From Olivibacter sitiensis DSM 17696 (lineage in GTDB: Bacteria > Bacteroidota > Bacteroidia > Sphingobacteriales > Sphingobacteriaceae), in contig NZ_ATZA01000033.1 in NCBI RefSeq assembly GCF_000427965.1, forward strand, positions 1 through 63,712: 63,712 nt of DNA. Direction: 5' to 3'. How positions within the stretch are numbered: the first letter of the stretch is position 1; each line of letters starts with the position of its first letter. The notes below the pieces were generated by a model. That model was not told the DNA's origin, searched no databases, and saw only the letters and a list, made by a program, of their open reading frames with translations. The position numbers and the translations under genes are program-made. This document shows positions 1-63,712 of this stretch, in pieces.

Positions 1-192
1 CATAGAATCACATCGGCTGAATATTCCGAACAGCATCGTCATGAGTTGTGTCCATGAATCAAAGGTCTTGTAATAGCGGTCAGACCGGTGCTTGCTCACA
101 AGCATCTCAAATTTGTTCCTTGGAATAAAACCTAATAATTGTTTGAAGATTGGCTGACCGACTAATTTCTTTTCTGTATTTTTATCACTCAT
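1..192 (-). mobile_element. IS4-family transposase, N-terminal part (DUF4372 type), cut by window edge
   Basis: The minus strand reads 64 codons from an ATG at 190-192 to the window edge without a stop. The peptide begins MSDKNTEKKLVGQPIFKQLL and continues through a P-R-N-K-F-E segment and a W-T-Q-L-M-T-M-L-F-G stretch ending in S-R-C-D-S-M. This is the pattern of the DUF4372 N-terminal domain that precedes the DDE domain in many IS4-family transposases of Bacteroidota. The catalytic DDE part lies outside the window, so whether the element is intact cannot be judged. The insertion-sequence end should lie between 193 and about 226, because the terminator of the neighbouring OmpA gene begins there. 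I could not recognise a terminal inverted repeat. Confidence 0.72.
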
Positions 193-226
193 ATTTTTAG
201 TTTGTCGTAAAACCAAAATATGAAAA

Positions 227-255
227 AAGGAGCTTGCCAGATATGGCAGCTCCTT
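227..255 (-). terminator. Rho-independent terminator of the OmpA-family gene
   Basis: An imperfect inverted repeat (AAGGAGCT-T-GCCA / GATA loop / TGGC-AGCTCCTT) lies 37 bases beyond the stop codon of the OmpA-family gene. Read on the minus strand the stem is followed directly by a run of six T residues, the classical intrinsic-terminator layout. It also separates that gene from the transposase on the same strand. Confidence 0.8.
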
Positions 256-291
256 AAATTATTTTTTGTCGGTCAGTAGTGATAGAGAATA

Positions 292-18965: not shown

Positions 18966-21518
18966 ATGTCGGTCCTTAAAAACAGAAAATTGCTTCGTTT
19001 CTCGTTTTTGGTGCTTATGGGTACAGCAATGGCTACATCCCTATCTTTTGCCCAGGTTAGAATTACGGGACGCGTGACCGATGCCATAACCGGAAAAGGC
19101 GTTTCTGCGGTGACGGTACGCATGCTGCATACCTCCATAGGTGCCGCTACGGACAGTGCAGGCTACTACGCGATATCGACCGGCGTTTCTACGGGCACGC
19201 TTCAGTTCACGGCATTGGGATTTAGGTCTGTTACTAAATCGTTGCCGGAAGGAAGCGTTGTAGAGGTCAACGTGCAACTGGAGCAAAATATAAACCAGCT
19301 TCATGAAGTGGAGATAGGGACTAAGCGCCCTATTCCTAAACACGATCGCTCGGCGGCCGAGCTTATACGTAAGGTGATAGGTCGCAAAAAGCAGAACAGG
19401 ATGTTGAGATTTGACGCTATCTCGTTTCAAACCTATGAAAAGCTGATGATCGCATTTGCGGATATTCCCCGGGTTTTGGCCAATAGTTCGCTCAGTAAGG
19501 GATACCGCTTTGCTCTGGAAAATGTAGATACCGTATCGGTTCCGGGCAGGGCCCTGGTTCCCGTTTACCTCGGGGAGTCTTTTGCGCTACATTTCAAGGG
19601 CCGGTTTCCCAAGATCAATCGGACGCTGGTCACAGCTGAACAAAAGACCAAGCTGGACGAACGTTATGTGAACAATGAAAACTTGAATACCTATTTTGAT
19701 TTTCTGAACAAGGAAGTGGATATCTATGACAACGATATACTGATTCTCGGTCGTCCATTTCTGAGCCCCATTGCCGAAAGCGCCTTGCTCTTTTACAACT
19801 ACTATGTGACCGATACTGTTGATGTAAACGGGGCAGGTTTTGTGGAGGTAACTTTCCTGCCTCGAAATGATAAAGACCGCCTGTTTTCGGGCAAGCTCCA
19901 CGTCTCTATGGATGGCAATTATGCTATTGGACAGGCCGATTTATCGGTAGATGACAAAGTCAACGTAAACTGGCTTAAGTCGATCCGTATTTTTCAGCGT
20001 TTTGGACAGCAGGAAGGAGCTTACCTGCCAGAATCGTGTGAAATTACGACCGTGATGAGTGTAGGGAAAGAAAAAGGAGGGGTAGTAGGGCAGCTGAATG
20101 TGATCTATAGCGACTACGATACGAAAGGGGACGTTCCCCCAGAACTGAAGTACAAAGCATATATGTCCTACGATGCAAAAAAGGATACCTTGAGCGAGGC
20201 AGAGTGGGCGAGACGACGGCCTATTCCCCTGTCTACGGCCGAGGCCAACACCTATTCCAATATAGATAGCCTGAGCAGCAGCCCATCCTTTATCCGTACC
20301 TTGCGGCTAGGCTACCTGGCCACTAAAGGATATTGGTACCAAGGACCAGTTGAATTTGGTCCTTTTGGGCGTATCGTCCACCACAATCAACAGGAAGGTA
20401 CGCGTATTCGTTTGGGTGGGCGCATTACGCCGGAGCTTTCCGATAAGTATTATTTGGAAGGATATATGGCCTATGGCTTTGGAGACAGGCAATTTAAGTA
20501 TTATGCTGGAGGTGCCTATACGCTGAACCGGCGCGAAGTGGGACGATATCCGAGTCATTACCTACAAGTATCCTTGCAGAAAGAAGTGAACCAACCTGGC
20601 GAGAAGCTCGGATTTAACCACAAGGACGAATTCTTGAGGTCGTTTCGTAGGGGCAACCAAGATTATTGGCTGTACAATACGGTATTCAACCTGGGCCATG
20701 TCGTCGAATTTGGCAACCATTGGATGCTGCAAACGCATTATAGCGCGCATAAGCAGCGGCCCGCCGGGAATATCCATTTCTTCTCTGCAGCCAACACAAA
20801 TGATACCTTGCGGGCGGTGAAGACCTCTGAATTGGGGGTTTTGCTGCGATGGGCTCCTTATGAGGAATTTTTTCAACAAAAGCTGGATAGGAAATACCTT
20901 ACCAACAAGCATCCCATCTTTACCTTCAGTTATAATATGGGGATTAAGGGTTTATTGGGAGGCGAATACAACTACCACGCCTTGCGCTTCAACGTTTCCA
21001 AGCGCTTTTGGCTGTCCCAGCTTGGATTGGCAGATGTAAACCTAGGTGCCGGTTATATATTCGGGGCTTTGCCTTTTCCACTGCTGGATATTCCAACGGC
21101 CAACCAGACTTACCTTACGGTGCCAGATGCCTTCGATCTGATGAACAGCATGGAATTTGTAAACGACCAATTTATCAAGATGACCGTCAGGTATCGCATG
21201 CTTGGATTTGTATTTAATAAGATTCCATTGTTGAGCCGTTTGAAATGGAGGGAAACTTCTCAGCTTAGCGTGCTTTATGGTGGCCTCCGCAATGAAAACC
21301 TGCCTGAGTATAATCCCGAAGTATTTCGTTTTCCGACCTATTCGAATAATGTACCGGCGACATTTGAGATGGGCAAAAAGCCCTATATGGAATGGAGCAT
21401 AGGTATTGAGAACATTTTTAAATTGTTGCGGATAGAGTATGTGCGTCGCTTGTCTTATCTTGATCATCCCAACATAGACGGGTCGGGCATTCGCTTTACT
21501 ATAAGAAGTGGTTTTTAA
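18966..21518 (+). CDS. DUF5686 / carboxypeptidase-regulatory-like outer-membrane protein
   Basis: An 850-residue protein with a signal peptide (about 1-29, ending LSFAQ), a carboxypeptidase-regulatory-like Ig domain (about 30-110; RITGRVTDAITGKGVSAVTV, DSAGYYAIS), and a long DUF5686 region. The latter ends in an aromatic, strand-rich part with the C-terminus IRFTIRSGF, as expected of an outer-membrane barrel. The family is widespread in Bacteroidota; its role is not settled. The ATG at 18966 is preferred to a TTG nine bases upstream. It lies directly downstream of the LytS/LytTR pair, hinting at regulation by it. A truncated paralogue occurs at 61894-63666: both end NIFKLLR...RRL.YLD.PN. Confidence 0.9.
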   Translation: MSVLKNRKLLRFSFLVLMGTAMATSLSFAQVRITGRVTDAITGKGVSAVTVRMLHTSIGAATDSAGYYAISTGVSTGTLQFTALGFRSVTKSLPEGSVVEVNVQLEQNINQLHEVEIGTKRPIPKHDRSAAELIRKVIGRKKQNRMLRFDAISFQTYEKLMIAFADIPRVLANSSLSKGYRFALENVDTVSVPGRALVPVYLGESFALHFKGRFPKINRTLVTAEQKTKLDERYVNNENLNTYFDFLNKEVDIYDNDILILGRPFLSPIAESALLFYNYYVTDTVDVNGAGFVEVTFLPRNDKDRLFSGKLHVSMDGNYAIGQADLSVDDKVNVNWLKSIRIFQRFGQQEGAYLPESCEITTVMSVGKEKGGVVGQLNVIYSDYDTKGDVPPELKYKAYMSYDAKKDTLSEAEWARRRPIPLSTAEANTYSNIDSLSSSPSFIRTLRLGYLATKGYWYQGPVEFGPFGRIVHHNQQEGTRIRLGGRITPELSDKYYLEGYMAYGFGDRQFKYYAGGAYTLNRREVGRYPSHYLQVSLQKEVNQPGEKLGFNHKDEFLRSFRRGNQDYWLYNTVFNLGHVVEFGNHWMLQTHYSAHKQRPAGNIHFFSAANTNDTLRAVKTSELGVLLRWAPYEEFFQQKLDRKYLTNKHPIFTFSYNMGIKGLLGGEYNYHALRFNVSKRFWLSQLGLADVNLGAGYIFGALPFPLLDIPTANQTYLTVPDAFDLMNSMEFVNDQFIKMTVRYRMLGFVFNKIPLLSRLKWRETSQLSVLYGGLRNENLPEYNPEVFRFPTYSNNVPATFEMGKKPYMEWSIGIENIFKLLRIEYVRRLSYLDHPNIDGSGIRFTIRSGF

Positions 21519-57624: not shown

Positions 57625-58338
57625 CTAGTCTGTTTTGCCGTTACATTGACCAATATAGTTCGCAAGGTCTGCTAGATCATCAAGTTCTATGGTTGCCGGC
57701 GTGGTGACTGTTTCAGGCTCCCAGGGAGTCACGTTGAGCCAAGCGGTTTGGCAGCCTAGGGACATAGCCGGAGCCATATCCTTGGAATAGGAATCGCCGA
57801 CTACAATGCATTCATCGCCTTCTAGGCCCAATTGTGTCAGTCCCAGCGCAAATATCTCCGGATTGGGCTTACGAACCCCAGCCTTGGCCGACTCGACCAC
57901 TGCTAGAAAAAGATCCGATAGCTTAAATTCACGGAGTACTTCATCTATATTGCCATAGAAATTGGATACCAAAACGATCGGATACTGTTTGGAAAGGCTC
58001 TCCACGACGGGACCGGTTTTTCTGATGGTGTCCAGTACCAGCCTATAGCAATCTTCCACAATATGAAGGATCTTTCTCTTGTCTAGTTCTTGACCCTTTT
58101 GAATTAGAAAGGCAAATTGCTCTCGCACCTTGATGTAGAGCACATCAAAGAAATTATGGTGCTCTAGGACCAGCAGTTTTGTGGCCAAGGTCCTTTCCCC
58201 ATGTACGTAGGCCGTGTAGAACTGCTCCTTACTGACAGGTATTTCGTTTTTTTTGTACATGCTCCATAGTACATGTGCCCAATGAACACCATTGGTATCA
58301 ATGGTGCCGCCATAATCCATGATTATACCTTTAATCAT
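57625..58338 (-). CDS. HAD-superfamily protein with altered motif I
   Basis: A 237-residue HAD protein. Motif I reads DYGGT (D8), where phosphatases have DxDGT, so the second aspartate is glycine. Motif II (VLVSNF), a lysine (KAGVRKPNPEIF) and motif IV (GDSYSKDMAPA) are present. The cap domain (about 15-110) is helical. It may not be a phosphatase; the nucleophile D8 is kept. It is the last of five tightly spaced minus-strand genes and overlaps the flippase-like gene by eight bases. Confidence 0.85.
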   Translation of the reverse strand: MIKGIIMDYGGTIDTNGVHWAHVLWSMYKKNEIPVSKEQFYTAYVHGERTLATKLLVLEHHNFFDVLYIKVREQFAFLIQKGQELDKRKILHIVEDCYRLVLDTIRKTGPVVESLSKQYPIVLVSNFYGNIDEVLREFKLSDLFLAVVESAKAGVRKPNPEIFALGLTQLGLEGDECIVVGDSYSKDMAPAMSLGCQTAWLNVTPWEPETVTTPATIELDDLADLANYIGQCNGKTD

Positions 58339-59338
58339 ATGTTAAATCTTTATTTCTACGTTTCAAAGCAATAAGGAGAAGACCTATGCCTATCCATACC
58401 AATTCGCGGATACGAACTACAACTCCTATCAATAATCCCAAGGCGGACGTAAATCCCACACTTTTCAGGGCCAATGCCAACCCGCCTTCGCGCACACCTA
58501 GCTGCATGGGGAAGAAGAAGGCTGCATTAGCCAAAAGCGATGAACCGGAGCTGACCAGCAAGGCCTGCAATATGCTCATATCGGCAGACAAGGCATTGGC
58601 GGTGAAATAAATCTCGGCACAGCTCACGATGCGTGCAAAAAATTCCCACCACAGGGAAGCATAGAATTGCTTTTTCCTATCTCCATAGAATGCCCTAATT
58701 TGCTCATCTATATTATTTAACGTTTCGAAATGCTCCTCTTCAAATGCAGCCAGTTTTTTTCCCACCCAAGGAAGCCTCTTGAGGTATTTGAAGCTTTGAA
58801 GGGTAAATCCATTGCGATAAATAAGCACAAACCAATAGCATAATAGTAAACCAAGTAGGAATATAGCCACGAAGACTATGTGCATATAGGTGCTGAGGTC
58901 TACGATGGCTATCAAAAAGATAATGGAAACCAACCAGAATACGACATGGGAAAACATGTGCATCAGACTGTATAGCAATACAGATGAACTGGCTTTTTCG
59001 ATGCCCAGCTTAGGCTTCAATTCCATGATGCGATAGGGCTCGCCGCCTAAGGCAATAAACGGAGTGATGTAATTGATAATATAGCCTGTAATGGTAACGT
59101 AGAGAATACTTCCGAAAGGTAGTTTGGTACTAGGATCCTTAGGTTCGTGGATGACTTGATTAAAAGCAATGGCATTACAGATATATACCAATAGCCAACT
59201 CCCTATAATGACTACAAACCACCAACCTATCTGCTTGACGCTGCTGGAGATTGTGCCCCAGCCCAAACTGTGGGTCATATAACCCAACGTCAGTAGACCG
59301 ATGGCAAAAAAAAGTACTTTATACAGTTTTGCCTTCAT
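58331..59338 (-). CDS. LPG-synthase-TM / flippase-like membrane protein (UPF0104)
   Basis: A 335-residue protein with about eight membrane helices. The lysylphosphatidylglycerol synthase TM (AglD-like) family is indicated by N-Y-I-T-P-F-I-A-L-G-G-E-P-Y-R, FFPMQLGVREGGLALAL and the overall topology. No aminoacyl-transferase domain is fused, so the role is more likely lipid translocation or transport than aminoacylation. It overlaps the CDP-alcohol phosphatidyltransferase gene by 20 bases and the HAD gene by 8. Confidence 0.88.
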   Translation of the reverse strand: MKAKLYKVLFFAIGLLTLGYMTHSLGWGTISSSVKQIGWWFVVIIGSWLLVYICNAIAFNQVIHEPKDPSTKLPFGSILYVTITGYIINYITPFIALGGEPYRIMELKPKLGIEKASSSVLLYSLMHMFSHVVFWLVSIIFLIAIVDLSTYMHIVFVAIFLLGLLLCYWFVLIYRNGFTLQSFKYLKRLPWVGKKLAAFEEEHFETLNNIDEQIRAFYGDRKKQFYASLWWEFFARIVSCAEIYFTANALSADMSILQALLVSSGSSLLANAAFFFPMQLGVREGGLALALKSVGFTSALGLLIGVVVRIRELVWIGIGLLLIALKRRNKDLTYD

Positions 59339-60254
59339 GCGTAGCTTCAGTGTACCTTCCTTTTGTCAATGCCTCATAAAAATGACTGCTCACTTTTTCC
59401 TGCTCTCTGCACATGTAGATGAGTATGGGGTTCAACACCAATAGATCAAAAAAGAAATAAATCCATGCCTGATCGATGAATAGCCATAAAAATAGGAAGA
59501 TGACACGGGTATTGAATTGCACAATGTTTGTATATTTCATCAAGGGCCTGTTCATGACCCTGAAATCGGTGATCAGATCTTGTGGCAGGGTAGACTGGCC
59601 AAACACCGACTTTACTTTTGACAAAAATAACTGTAACTTGGGAGATAAGCGCTCCTGCAAGGCCGTATAGTTCATATAGCCTCGGGCCACAAATCTTTTA
59701 AATACCCCTTTGGTGTTCTTATAATCTTCGGCTAGGTCTGTGGTGTTATCCAGCTCGCTCCCTATCTTTCCCTTGATGAAGAACAAGTGTACATTTCGAT
59801 AGTAATCTGCCATGGCCGATTGGAACACATGCGATACACCTGCGGCTATGCCAAACAACCAGATCCAGGCACTCCAACCTTGATCCATACTTCTCAAGCA
59901 GATGGCAATGTGAATGGATGCAAACCAAAAATCCCCGGCAAACCCATCCAAGATACGGCCAAATCTACTTTTATTATCGGTAAGCCTGGCCAATTGCCCG
60001 TCGGCACTGTCTAGTGAGTTGGCAAATACCAGCAATAACATACCCAATACGTTCAGTGAAAGCGACTGGGGATAGAACAATACGCCTGCACCTATACCGA
60101 AAAATATGCTGATGATGGTGACCGCATTTGGCGTCAATCCCACTTTTTGGCAAAAGAGGGCAATACGATAACCTATGGGCCTATAAAAATAGATATCTAT
60201 CTTTTCTTCTGTATCGTTGGATTTGAAGGTTTGTTCTAGTGTCAGTTTAGGCAT
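59319..60254 (-). CDS. CDP-alcohol phosphatidyltransferase
   Basis: A 311-residue membrane enzyme. The CDP-OH-P motif begins D-S-A-D-G-Q-L-A-R (D82, D85, G86, A89, R90), with G99 and D103. The fourth aspartate, expected at 107, is glycine (F-A-G-D), and the next residue is aspartate, so the site is shifted by one. Members join an alcohol phosphate from a CDP carrier to a second alcohol to make a phosphodiester. A long C-terminal part (about 170-311) carries further helices. It lies between the ATP-grasp gene (overlap 8) and the flippase-like gene (overlap 20). Confidence 0.88.
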   Translation of the reverse strand: MPKLTLEQTFKSNDTEEKIDIYFYRPIGYRIALFCQKVGLTPNAVTIISIFFGIGAGVLFYPQSLSLNVLGMLLLVFANSLDSADGQLARLTDNKSRFGRILDGFAGDFWFASIHIAICLRSMDQGWSAWIWLFGIAAGVSHVFQSAMADYYRNVHLFFIKGKIGSELDNTTDLAEDYKNTKGVFKRFVARGYMNYTALQERLSPKLQLFLSKVKSVFGQSTLPQDLITDFRVMNRPLMKYTNIVQFNTRVIFLFLWLFIDQAWIYFFFDLLVLNPILIYMCREQEKVSSHFYEALTKGRYTEATHEGKTV

Positions 60255-61137
60255 TTTTTACTTCGTATTGGTCTTTAAGTAGGTTTGCAGTCAATATATG
60301 ATGTATACTTTGGGCAATATAGGGTGCTGCCTTTTCCCTGCAAGGGGCAAAGCTAGGCCAGTCATTCATGTCAATCAGCTTGAAGTCGCCGGAGGCATCT
60401 ACAATGGCATCGCCACCATATATGTGTACGCCTAGTACATCTGCGGCTCGTTCCGCCGTCTTTTGCAGTTTTGCCGCGTTGAACTGAAAATGGCTTGACG
60501 CTCCGTTGATCAGTTTATATTCCTGGAACTTTTGATGTTCGGCATCATAGGGGTAAAACCAATGAAAGAAATCCGTACCCTTTACACCATAGAATTTCAC
60601 CAGATCGCCCGGCAGATGTTCTGAAATGACCGCCCGCCCAATATTACGCCTATGAAATTCCTGCAACAGCTCTATGCCCTCCTGTTTGTGGGCTACAAAG
60701 GACACGTCTTCTTTATGTATAGCGTGGAAGTCTCCTCGCTTGATCCAATAACCTTTCGATTCCAATTGATCAAAAGCCTGTTCTTCATTTTGATCGGTCA
60801 CCACTGCGATGCTCTTGGGATGTGGAATGCCGTTCCTTGTCAGGTGCACCGTCATGTTTTCTCGGTAGCAGTTTTCTATTCCAAAAGCGGAATTGATGAC
60901 AGGTACGCCAGTACGTTCGATTTTTTGCAGATGCTGCAGCAGTTTCTTGCTCCTGGCCATGGTGATGATCGGCATGGCCTTTATGGGAGAAATCCTCAAA
61001 AAAGCATCTTCTTCATAATGATAGACTTGATGTCCCAACTTTTCAAGCGCACTAACGGTCAAAGAAAATACAGCCCTATCATTGCCAATATGATTTGGTG
61101 AGTACAGGTCTTTGCGTGGAATGGCAATTATTTCCAT
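60247..61137 (-). CDS. ATP-grasp family protein
   Basis: A 296-residue ATP-grasp protein. An N-terminal Rossmann-like part (about 1-95) precedes the ATP-binding halves; the metal-binding strand is AIVDASGDFKLIDMNDWPSF. It looks closest to RimK-like or inositol-phosphate-kinase-like members, but I cannot tell which. ATP-grasp enzymes ligate a carboxylate to an amine or phosphorylate alcohols; in this cluster either could decorate or activate the head group. It starts 7 bases after the nucleotidyltransferase gene and overlaps the next gene by 8. Confidence 0.82.
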   Translation of the reverse strand: MEIIAIPRKDLYSPNHIGNDRAVFSLTVSALEKLGHQVYHYEEDAFLRISPIKAMPIITMARSKKLLQHLQKIERTGVPVINSAFGIENCYRENMTVHLTRNGIPHPKSIAVVTDQNEEQAFDQLESKGYWIKRGDFHAIHKEDVSFVAHKQEGIELLQEFHRRNIGRAVISEHLPGDLVKFYGVKGTDFFHWFYPYDAEHQKFQEYKLINGASSHFQFNAAKLQKTAERAADVLGVHIYGGDAIVDASGDFKLIDMNDWPSFAPCREKAAPYIAQSIHHILTANLLKDQYEVKNA

Positions 61138-61144
61138 TATCTAC

Positions 61145-61876
61145 TTATATTTTATTTGCAATGGAAGCTCTGTTCAATTTGTTCAGAAATGCTTCGGCTA
61201 CTTTTATGTCCTTTACATGATCGATGTCTACGATTTGTGAAAAAGGATGGGCTTTTACGTGTAAGCCCTGTTCTAGTAATAAGCGCTGAAAGTTACGCAT
61301 TCTTTCCATTTTTTTGCTAATAGCGAGCTGTGCTGTGCTCAATGCCTTGCTTCTCAGGCAATAAATTCCTCCAGAAACATGTGCATAATAGGACTTGCTT
61401 TGATCGCTAAAGCCCAATATCTCCCTATTCGCATTGACACGGACATAGAGAGGCGACTCGTCATCTACAAAAGACGTCACGCCCATAAGGGCATCTACTG
61501 ATTTGTCGGATTGAAAATCCTCTATCAGGTTATGAAACTCCATTTCAGCAAAAACGGTATCCGTTGTGGTCAAACAAAGTTCGGTGATGTGCGGAAACGC
61601 GTCTAAAAGTTCACAAAGGCTATGTAGCGAGCTCACAGTGTCCTTCTTTACAATCTGGATCGGCGCGTGAACCTTCAGCTTTCGGAGCACTCTTTCCAGT
61701 TTGGGACTATGTTTGTTGATCACTACATAGATACTTTCAGCCCGCTCATCCATAAATATCCTCACCAGCCTTTCTATGAGGCTCTCCCCCTGCAAAGGAA
61801 CAAGGGGTTTGGGAAGCGTAAAGCCCTCCTTTGCGAGACGGCTGCCTTCGCCTGCAGCTATAATGCCAAATACCAT
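61145..61876 (-). CDS. Sugar- or polyol-phosphate nucleotidyltransferase
   Basis: A 243-residue NTP-transferase. The pyrophosphorylase signature is GIIAAGEGSRLAKEG...PKPLVPLQG; the metal-binding acid is in C-L-T-T-T-D-T-V-F. It resembles MobA/IPCT-like enzymes that make CDP- or other NDP-activated alcohols. The product would feed the CDP-alcohol phosphatidyltransferase two genes downstream. The gene starts 17 bases after the DUF5686 gene, at the head of the five-gene set. Confidence 0.87.
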   Translation of the reverse strand: MVFGIIAAGEGSRLAKEGFTLPKPLVPLQGESLIERLVRIFMDERAESIYVVINKHSPKLERVLRKLKVHAPIQIVKKDTVSSLHSLCELLDAFPHITELCLTTTDTVFAEMEFHNLIEDFQSDKSVDALMGVTSFVDDESPLYVRVNANREILGFSDQSKSYYAHVSGGIYCLRSKALSTAQLAISKKMERMRNFQRLLLEQGLHVKAHPFSQIVDIDHVKDIKVAEAFLNKLNRASIANKI

Positions 61877-61893
61877 TTTCTGTCTATAATCTG

Positions 61894-63666
61894 TTAAAAA
61901 TCAAATTTCACCCTAAAACGAACACCCCATTTCGGGCTATTGGGCAAGTCTAGGTAGTTAAGACGTCTCACAGCGTCCACGCGCAATAACTTGAAAATAT
62001 TGGCTACGCCCGCACTCGCTTCCATATAAGGTGTATTTCCTATCACATAGGAAATAGACTGGCCTTGGTTATTCGTCGGAAACAATAGATTGTTGCCGTT
62101 TATGTTTGGATTGTTCTTATCACTCAAACCACCATAGAGTGCCTTGAAACTGAATACTTCACGCCATTTCAACTTTCTAAACAACGGAATCTTATTGAAC
62201 AGAAAGCCGTTCATATAGTATTGTATATTTAGATTCACGTATTTATCACTTACAAATTCCATAAAATTCATCATATTATATGAATTTAGCTGGTAGGCAT
62301 AAGTTTGGTTGGCCCTAGGTAGAGACAATAGCGCAAAAGGAATTTCCTTGCCAAAAATATAGCCGCCATCTACCATCCAATCCACATAGCCAAACTGTGA
62401 AAGGTATGAACGTTTAGATATCGCTCCAGATAAGTGGTGATACTCGTGGTCTCCGTTGAACAAACCCTTTATGCCTGCTGCATATCGTAAGGTAAAGATA
62501 GGATATTTGTTTATAATGGGAATACGGTACAGCTTGCCTTGATAGAATTTTTCATTGGGCGCATAGCGCAATTCGAGACTGGCTTCCGAATTGTTGATAT
62601 AAGGAATGTTCTCTATACCTTCTGCAGTCTGCCGTTGAAAGGCAAGTACCCCCGCAGCCTGTTGTTGCCAGCGAGAGAAGCCTAACTGATAGGAGAAGTG
62701 GTTCTCAAACTCCTTGATGTACTCTACTTTGTATGTCTCGTTATAGAGCCATCTGTTGTTGTCCCCACGCTTGAAAGACAAGAGGAAGTTGTCTTCCTGT
62801 ACGAATTGCAACTCTTGTCCAGGGATTTTCGTGTCCTTTTGATAGCTGACTCGCATGTAGTGCAAAGGGAAGTGATAGACTGATTCGTTGTTGAACGAAT
62901 AGGTGCCACTAAGGAAATATTTCCACTTTTGATCCCTGAAACCATAAGCAGCATAGGTCTCCATGTAGAACCGTTTACTGAGATTGGGCGTAGTGCGTCC
63001 CCCTACACGAAGTCTGAAACCTTCTACCGGGTTGAAACTATAAAAAGTATTGACAGGACCTATTTCAAATTTGTCAAAGGACTTGTAGCCCGCCAATAGG
63101 AGCGTAGCAATGTCCATTGTCCGCCTGAAGGATGGAATGCGTTGCAGGGTGTCGATATTTTTGTATATGTCCGCCTCCAGGTTGTCCAAAGGGATGGGAC
63201 GCAGCTGGTCCCATGCAGCATCAGAATCGGCTATTTTCAGGTTCTTTTGCTCTAGCTTAGGGCCCTGATATGTGCTGTCTGGACGAGGCTGGTTAATGAG
63301 GTAGTCATTGATATCCGTCACCCGACGACCATAAAGGCCACTGCCATTTTTGCTGAGCGCAAATTCCATGTCCAGTGTGCTGTTCGACAAGCGATAACGG
63401 CCGTCTTCCGCCTTCTCAAAGGAAAGCGTTGCCTCCATATTGCGCAGGAAATTGAGGTTCACCGCTTCGTCCAGTGTCAGTACGGCCTTTTGCACGGCAT
63501 AGTTGCCATCTAGGGTAATATATATCTTACCTTGAAACAACATGTCGGCCCTATTGCGTGGTACGAAACTAAGTTCTACCAAATAGGGTTGTTGCGTTTT
63601 GATCGTGTCTGTAATATAAAATTTCACTACCAAACGGATAAACTTAAAAACAGGCAATAAACTCAC
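61894..63666 (-). pseudogene. 5'-truncated DUF5686 outer-membrane protein gene
   Basis: The open frame encodes up to 590 residues homologous to the second part of the DUF5686 protein at 18966-21518. The shared sequence begins at YITDT (the YVTDT segment of the paralogue, near its residue 275) and runs to a matching C-terminus (NIFKLLR...RRLNYLDLPN). The signal peptide, carboxypeptidase-like domain and first 270 residues are missing. Upstream of a GTG at 63664-63666 the frame is closed by a TAA and the sequence up to the window edge is AT-rich and unrelated. It may be a remnant after insertion or rearrangement, or the rest may lie outside the window behind an inserted element. It sits 17 bases before the nucleotidyltransferase gene. 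Confidence 0.72.
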
Positions 63667-63712
63667 TTAACTTACTGATTATCAGTAAATATTTTCATTA
63701 GATAAAAAAGCC
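63667..63712. other. Unrelated AT-rich sequence at the truncated end of the DUF5686 gene
   Basis: These 46 bases do not continue the DUF5686 reading frame; on the minus strand they read ATGAAAATATTTACTGATAA and meet a stop after eight codons (MKIFTDNQ). They could be the edge of an inserted element. Too little sequence is present to identify it. Confidence 0.35.

Follow-up and report, generated by a model that had tools for sequence, protein, structure and literature searches.

We analyzed one contig of Olivibacter sitiensis DSM 17696 (NZ_ATZA01000033.1, C37 in our numbering; positions 1-63712, referred to as the window throughout), which is one of 110 contigs of a 5.05-Mb genome. Near its end lies a compact row of five minus-strand genes encoding a nucleotidyltransferase (NTP), an ATP-grasp enzyme, a CDP-alcohol phosphotransferase (CDP-OH), a membrane protein of the LPG_synthase_TM family (LPG_TM) and a hydrolase of the HAD superfamily. 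As judged from sequence and gene context, the probable product of this module is an inositol phospholipid, in all likelihood phosphoinositol (dihydro)ceramide, formed via a Kennedy-like route. The genes recur in the same order in other genera, they are linked in relatives to genes for inositol-phosphate synthase (MIPS), serine palmitoyltransferase (SPT) and a putative inositol-type kinase, and they exchange places with PIPS-type inositol-lipid genes.

An earlier, sequence-only reading of this DNA had described five minus-strand genes that overlap or lie at most 7 bases apart, and the open reading frames, order, strand and spacings agree with it (Table 1). The HAD and LPG_TM genes overlap by 8 bases, LPG_TM and CDP-OH by 20, and CDP-OH and ATP-grasp by 8; 7 bases separate ATP-grasp from NTP and 17 bases separate NTP from a DUF5686 gene, and accD is found 89 bases past the HAD gene. 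The family names given there were upheld as well, by Pfam for HAD, LPG_TM, CDP-OH and NTP, and by weak NCBIfam matches together with a confident structural model for ATP-grasp. The matches to HAD, LPG_synthase_TM, CDP-OH_P_transf, NTP_transferase and DUF5686 all exceed the Pfam cut-offs; against an HpnL-like model, the LPG_TM protein scored 105 bits, under the cut-off of 195.65. Scans for sigma-70 promoters and terminators gave scores no better than those of shuffled sequence. A Bacteroidota-type promoter pattern has eight matches across the window (2.3 expected) and none on the minus strand within the cluster, and this absence hints at a single operon.

Table 1 Features at the module end of the window, in order of position.
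Feature	Coordinates	Strand	Support
HAD-superfamily hydrolase, 237 aa	57625..58338	-	PF00702, 55.1 bits
LPG_synthase_TM (LPG_TM) membrane protein, 335 aa, possible flippase	58331..59338	-	PF03706, 91.5 bits
CDP-alcohol phosphotransferase (CDP-OH), 311 aa	59319..60254	-	PF01066, 44.7 bits (cut-off 22)
ATP-grasp enzyme, 296 aa, proposed inositol/inositol-phosphate kinase	60247..61137	-	predicted ATP-grasp fold
Nucleotidyltransferase (NTP), 243 aa, proposed CTP:inositol-phosphate cytidylyltransferase	61145..61876	-	PF00483, 43.4 bits; PF12804, 43.4 bits
DUF5686 gene, 3' part, broken by a repeat	61894..63624	-	PF18939, 156.5 bits
End of a many-copy repeat at the contig end, probable insertion sequence	63624..63712	.	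30 other matches in the genome

Scanning GTDB genomes with CDP-OH as the query yielded 73 named loci from Olivibacter, Sphingobacterium, Parapedobacter, Pedobacter, Dyadobacter, Runella, Larkinella, Rhabdobacter, Arachidicoccus and other genera, with duplicate DNA in the pairs L014/L027, L015/L026, L016/L028, L018/L048 and L019/L065. NTP and ATP-grasp each stand beside CDP-OH in 72/73 loci (the contig of the exception, L034, starts in CDP-OH), LPG_TM is present in 71/73 (L059 is cut by a contig end, L093 has no LPG_TM) and HAD in 70/73 (L058, L059 and L060 are cut). Wherever the genes are present, their order is identical. This recurrence in other genera makes the module more than a product of chance, and the comparison of gene order in related genomes, which the sequence-only reading had named as a possible refutation of its pathway idea, did not refute it. 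In two loci, one gene reads as two pieces owing to a frameshift or break, namely LPG_TM of S. multivorum NCTC11343 (L036:10881-11879) and ATP-grasp of an Arachidicoccus (L093:8811-9572).

Among 60 relatives, a close CDP-OH gene occurs in 7 genomes, which represent three genera, five of them falling in one genus, and hence few independent events. MIPS was found in 11 of the 60, including 7/7 cluster genomes, and SPT scored over its cut-off in 13, again including 7/7 (simple chance values of 9e-7 for MIPS and 4e-6 for SPT; 0.002 for MIPS at the genus level). In a sample of 395 class genomes, 8 have ATP-grasp, 9 a strong CDP-OH match (E < 1e-80) and 34 MIPS. The 8 with ATP-grasp all fall within the 9 that have a strong CDP-OH match, and the ATP-grasp gene is tied to the cluster; the ninth genome (G185) has only a CDP-OH paralogue. 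MIPS is found in 6/8 of the ATP-grasp genomes (chance value of 7e-6 if independent).

In the named loci, MIPS stands directly upstream of the module in 30/73 and is present in 55/73 genomes, comprising 29 counted by their linked gene and 26 of the other 44, which were searched with PF01658. An SPT homologue is found in 40/73 loci, accompanied in 39 of these 40 by GNAT and SDR homologues, which may be a ceramide N-acyltransferase and a ceramide reductase. These SPT genes were called by their 70-80% identity to the SPT of locus L127 and not by a family model locus by locus; the family model NF047600 scores over its cut-off in L127 and in the window genome. Where the loci of Dyadobacter, Runella, Larkinella, Rhabdobacter and Parapedobacter are uncut, their row starts with SPT, GNAT, SDR, (in Parapedobacter) MIPS and DUF5686, and continues with NTP, ATP-grasp, CDP-OH, LPG_TM, HAD, a PfkB kinase and DUF4833. 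Neither MIPS nor SPT adjoins the module in five uncut loci (L026, L028, L050, L064 and L065), and MIPS is present but unlinked in each of these genomes.

The PfkB kinase gene adjoins the module in 37/73 loci. The protein of L168 has TM0415 as its best PDB match (E 4.5e-26), and the inositol-contact residues D11, N78, Q141 and R145 of TM0415, placed by eye on the alignment, are kept in 37/37 PfkB sequences. At the donor motif, these proteins have Ala or Thr followed by Cys where TM0415 has two Arg. According to passages of PMC5931981, TM0415 makes myo-inositol monophosphate using pyrophosphate, and Cys at the donor position is typical of ATP-using members. The PfkB protein of the relatives may be an inositol-type kinase with an ATP-type donor motif.

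The sequence-only reading noted no gene in the window for making a known alcohol, such as inositol phosphate synthase; the MIPS of this genome is unlinked, on contig C25 (PF01658 86 bits; mycothiol_INO1 286.5 against a cut-off of 638), and its SPT is on contig C18, beside another CDP-OH gene. Its conclusion that the product is open can be narrowed, since MIPS, SPT and the inositol-type PfkB flank the module in relatives, the genome itself has MIPS and SPT elsewhere, and the set of NTP, CDP-OH and HAD is that of a published, predicted inositol-lipid cluster (Heaver 2022; text of PMC9246714). The MIPS on C25 (L125:8526-9755) is a divergent protein of 410 aa, and scores point to the same type in many Dyadobacter genomes, in Pedobacter and in O. 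jilunii; none of this type was found in the flanks of the 73 named loci. The CDP-OH gene on C18 (L184:6514-7254) is unlike that of the module (DSLDGRIAYY...GFSLDIIMD), lies near SPT, GNAT and GtrA, is also found in G002 (L185) and may make another sphingolipid head group.

A further line of evidence came from loci in which the module and PIPS-type genes replace each other. In family f1, locus L127 carries SPT, GNAT, SDR, MIPS, PgpA, GtrA, DUF5686, PIPS (NF052561 over its cut-off) and a homologue of the PI-dihydroceramide synthase (NF052609 312.8 bits, under the cut-off of 480), and in L186 of the same family the module occupies the place of PIPS. Similarly, one genome of genus g57 (G112, L189) reads MIPS-PgpA-GtrA-PIPS followed by LPG_TM, whereas another (G152, L118) reads MIPS-NTP-ATP-grasp-CDP-OH-LPG_TM-HAD, and both are flanked by a common histidine-kinase-like gene, the two copies being 75% identical over 397 aa; no inositol phosphorylceramide (IPC) synthase was detected in L189. 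In family f57, the same swap is seen between G185 (L188) and G394 (L123), which have a neighboring gene in common (65% over 260 aa). Homologues of the IPC-synthase and PgpA of L127 were found in 0/73 named loci within the examined flanks. Because the module stands in the place of a PIPS module that is proven in B. thetaiotaomicron (as stated in PMC9246714), it most likely does the same job. Matches of the PIPS query in 39 named loci were not counted as PIPS and were attributed to a DUF4833 domain fused to the query.

The PIPS-type cluster of B. thetaiotaomicron (BT_1522, 1523, 1525, 1526) resembles the module in its MIPS neighbor and in the chromosomal slot shared in the compared pairs, and probably in its end product, but it goes via PIP-DAG (PIP synthase, PIP phosphatase and PI-dihydroceramide (PI-DHC) synthase). 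Closer in gene content is an 'alternative' cluster, which the text of PMC9246714 proposes as the explanation for B. vulgatus and P. veroralis having no PIPS-type genes yet making PI-DHC. In this cluster of B. vulgatus and Prevotella, NTP, CDP-OH and HAD also stand together, the published cases mostly adjoin MIPS, and nearby genes named 'lysylphosphatidylglycerol synthase' and 'carboxypeptidase-regulatory-like domain protein' fit LPG_TM and DUF5686, the intact form of which has a carboxypeptidase-regulatory-like domain. In addition, the tags BVU_RS13095, 13105 and 13115 would leave room for one gene per gap, as ATP-grasp and LPG_TM would fill. The same source notes moderate homology of the alternative cluster in Sphingobacteria and cites a report of ceramide phosphoinositol in Sphingobacterium spiritivorum, and P. 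copri is stated in PMC10865984 to make DHC-PI. In contrast to the module, the alternative cluster as presented in the main text of PMC9246714 has no mention of an ATP-grasp protein. MIPS is usually adjacent there, whereas in the window MIPS is unlinked and a broken DUF5686 gene lies upstream of NTP; the relatives of the window module add linked SPT/GNAT/SDR, PfkB and DUF4833. The available text of PMC12482443 only restates the variant in Prevotella, and the titles and abstract beginnings of the open-access PMC matches listed contained no experimental test of the alternative cluster.

The module thus fits as another case of this known, unproven kind of cluster (Heaver 2022). New are the ATP-grasp gene, which is a constant member and is unnamed in the published scheme, a CDP-OH family in which the fourth Asp of the signature is missing, a HAD protein lacking the acid at D+2 and, in relatives, the linkage to sphingolipid genes. 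For inositol sphingolipids, a second route in bacteria had already been proposed; the relatives link it to SPT within one gene row and would extend it to free-living Sphingobacteriaceae and Spirosomataceae.

From these genes we infer the following course. Inositol phosphate would come from MIPS (in the window genome, the divergent and unlinked gene on C25) or, in relatives, from inositol and the PfkB kinase. NTP would convert inositol phosphate and CTP to CDP-inositol, CDP-OH would use the latter as donor to place phosphoinositol on dihydroceramide or diacylglycerol, and the LPG_TM protein might move the lipid across the inner membrane, with DUF5686, where intact, possibly serving it at the outer membrane. 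ATP-grasp and HAD could work as a pair that adds a phosphate to the inositol ring and removes it again, either prior to coupling or afterwards. In outline, the activation of an alcohol phosphate, its coupling to a lipid and its movement across the membrane, as the sequence-only reading had them, fit the genes found. If the route runs from Ins(3)P via CDP-inositol, the lipid would be expected to be linked at 1D-3, not 1D-1.

By profile and fold, the CDP-OH protein is closest to inositol-type enzymes. It belongs to the CDP-alcohol phosphotransferase superfamily by its PF01066 score (Table 1) and its fold, and its profile search reached AF2299 in the PDB at E 5.8e-10. Foldseek placed AF2299 and PIPS best, the first 16 rows all being of this superfamily (prob 1.00, although the lowest E was only 1.3e-3 and TM ranged over 0.36-0.51). 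With the BT1523-type PIP synthase model NF052561, it scored 28.7 bits against a cut-off of 350. The NTP protein matched sugar nucleotidyltransferases of several kinds in the PDB, including LicC (1jyk) and IPCT (2xme).

At two catalytic positions, every member examined deviates from the rule. HAD phosphatases typically have a DxD motif I with an Asp at nucleophile+2 (D+2). In the HAD protein of the module motif I reads DYGGT, and the Gly at D+2 recurs in 23/23 sequences and 7/7 further rows; D8, G10, G11, T12, S125, K157, D182 and D187 are invariant across the 23. The CDP-OH signature is DSADGQLAR..GRILDGFAGD, in which Gly replaces the fourth Asp of the canonical DxxDGxxAR...GxxxDxxxD (as quoted in PMC9246714). 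This position is Gly in 79/79 rows (74 distinct loci), where the signature ends in DGxAG[DS], and in 11 further CDP-OH rows it is Gly in nine, Ser in two and Asp in none; the PIPS control rows have Asp in 4/4, and three other CDP-OH proteins of the window genome keep it. The B. vulgatus CDP-OH, which according to PMC9246714 was found via a pattern including the fourth Asp, sits oddly with these rows. A group of CDP-OH paralogues (L162, L163 and L166) likewise has no fourth Asp, with an SDR gene adjoining in L162 and L163, and another paralogue (L164:6669-10263) stands directly before DUF5686, with a GNAT homologue and a gene for an Amino_oxidase-type flavoprotein in the vicinity.

Several observations weigh against the assignment as an inositol sphingolipid module. 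MIPS and SPT are both unlinked to it in the window genome, and within the examined flanks of the named Sphingobacterium and Olivibacter loci no SPT was found. No PF01658 MIPS was detected in 18 of the 44 cluster genomes searched, nor in two of the eight ATP-grasp genomes of the class sample (G318 and G415, of which G318 carries a PfkB kinase). The best PDB matches of NTP are non-inositol enzymes, and the true acceptor of TM0415 is perhaps another compound, with a Km for myo-inositol 40x that of the archaeal kinase (passages of PMC5931981). Since CDP-OH has no fourth Asp and HAD no acid at D+2, canonical chemistry cannot be assumed from these sequences, and a repeat inserted upstream of the module may disturb its expression. 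Inositol salvage would explain the absent MIPS: an SPT homologue is present in 18/18 MIPS-less loci and PfkB in 17/18, the contig of the remaining one (L059, a metagenome-assembled genome) ending before the PfkB position.

Any role for the ATP-grasp protein is tentative, and the modifying step given to it by the sequence-only reading is a guess. It has no Pfam match above cut-off and only weak RimK-like NCBIfam matches (RimK TIGR00768, 30.9 bits against a cut-off of 143.4), and its predicted model has an ATP-grasp fold (mean pLDDT 88.5). Its profile A1 gave seven PDB rows at E <= 1, six ITPKs (E 0.004-0.024) and one ArgX, and a broader profile gave 12, namely six ITPKs (1z2n at E 0.00082), ArgX (0.0011), one other ATP-grasp protein and four unrelated ones from E 0.78 on. 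The matches to ITPKs are weak, one stretch of them being at IDxNxxPS. Among 24 family members, PF05770 (ITPK) matched 6 at E <= 1 (best 0.035, not the window protein), ATPgrasp_ST 5 (best 0.0079) and RimK 2; these matches are at noise level, as unrelated families score alike. A profile-profile comparison with the NTP profile gave nothing (prob 1.2). In the fold searches by Foldseek and VIA, D-Ala ligases, RimK, ArgX and LysX took the top rows, with a Z of 19.4 for ITPK1 versus 21.7 for RimK, and neither search separated kinase from ligase. Overall, the profiles point more to ITPK kinases and the folds more to ligases. The protein matches the ITPK kinases weakly by profile and is of the same fold class, but it has no significant Pfam match, and RimK, ArgX and D-Ala ligases fit its fold equally well or better.

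From context, we prefer a kinase acting on inositol or inositol phosphate, a role to which we give about the same weight as to all others together. A serious competitor, although we consider it unlikely, leaves the inositol-lipid pathway in place and makes ATP-grasp a ligase of RimK/ArgX type, by which the head group would receive an amino acid or a similar group. The top fold rows, the near tie of ArgX with ITPK in the broader profile and the three weak NCBIfam matches, all to ligase families, argue for it, whereas six of the seven A1 rows are ITPKs, PF05770 is the Pfam family matching most members (yet at noise level) and no amino-acid carrier gene was noticed within the module. Improbable, in our view, is a route built on a bacterial ITPK-type inositol phosphate kinase. 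ITPKs reportedly act on Ins(3)P (Desfougeres 2019); such an enzyme would turn the Ins(3)P made by MIPS into a bisphosphate, from which NTP would form CDP-inositol phosphate and CDP-OH, without its fourth Asp, PIP-ceramide, and HAD would remove the extra phosphate. If true, this bisphosphate route would arrive, by different chemistry, at the PIP intermediate through which the mycobacterial and BT route runs, and a bacterial lipid pathway would then include inositol-phosphate kinase chemistry.

It is rather doubtful that the head group is something other than inositol in at least some hosts, for example another polyol or a sugar phosphate. Other head groups are known in Sphingobacterium, the CDP-OH paralogue in L163, which belongs to the same group as that of G185, adjoins a glycerol-3-phosphate cytidylyltransferase-like gene, and the MIPS-less cluster genomes could be read in this way; however, the PfkB proteins in 17 of these 18 keep the inositol-contact residues, and the linked MIPS in other loci points to inositol. 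We give similarly little credit to the idea that PI-DAG is the product of CDP-OH and that the HAD protein serves afterwards as the PI-DHC synthase. HAD hydrolases as a rule act on phosphomonoesters, and the HAD protein matches only HAD families and no membrane family, although this scheme is the one proposed in PMC9246714, where a fused CDP-OH/HAD protein is reported for P. veroralis. Least probable is a soluble phosphodiester, such as the di-inositol phosphate of hyperthermophiles (from CDP-inositol and inositol phosphate, followed by a phosphatase): the module contains a HAD hydrolase, and NTP and CDP-OH weakly match the bifunctional IPCT/DIPPS model NF041135 (33.1 and 30.4 bits; cut-off 580), but the SPT homologues, the slot exchange with a lipid pathway and the near-constant LPG_TM membrane protein speak for a lipid. 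Archaeal IPCT-DIPPS, which is also named in PMC9246714, is like the preferred inositol-lipid reading in combining a cytidylyltransferase with a CDP-OH enzyme that uses CDP-inositol; it differs from the module in that the latter has two separate genes, scores far under the cut-off and stands in a lipid rather than a solute context.

Upstream of NTP, the sequence-only reading had placed a DUF5686 gene at a distance of 17 bases. Spacing and family proved correct, but the gene is not intact. Its alignment starts at residue 286 of an 864-aa homologue (L122:7072-9663), and the remaining part, up to homologue residue 288, is on contig C96. The last 89 bases of the window match 30 other places in the genome, most of them near contig ends, the end of C96 matches 31, and a 9-base direct repeat is found at both break points. 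Because of the many-copy repeat at the break and this direct repeat, the pattern is probably that of an insertion-sequence jump. A GTG at 63666 lies within the repeat with in-frame stops directly before it, and is therefore not the start of the DUF5686 gene. In relatives, intact DUF5686 genes occupy the same position. The odds of an inositol-lipid product are unaffected by this break, since it lies outside the five genes. Both ends of the window (1-284 and 63624-63712) carry repeat ends with ~30 genome matches, many near contig ends. A second DUF5686 gene is located on the plus strand of the window (19023-21509), with 37% identity to residues 26-862 of the homologue.

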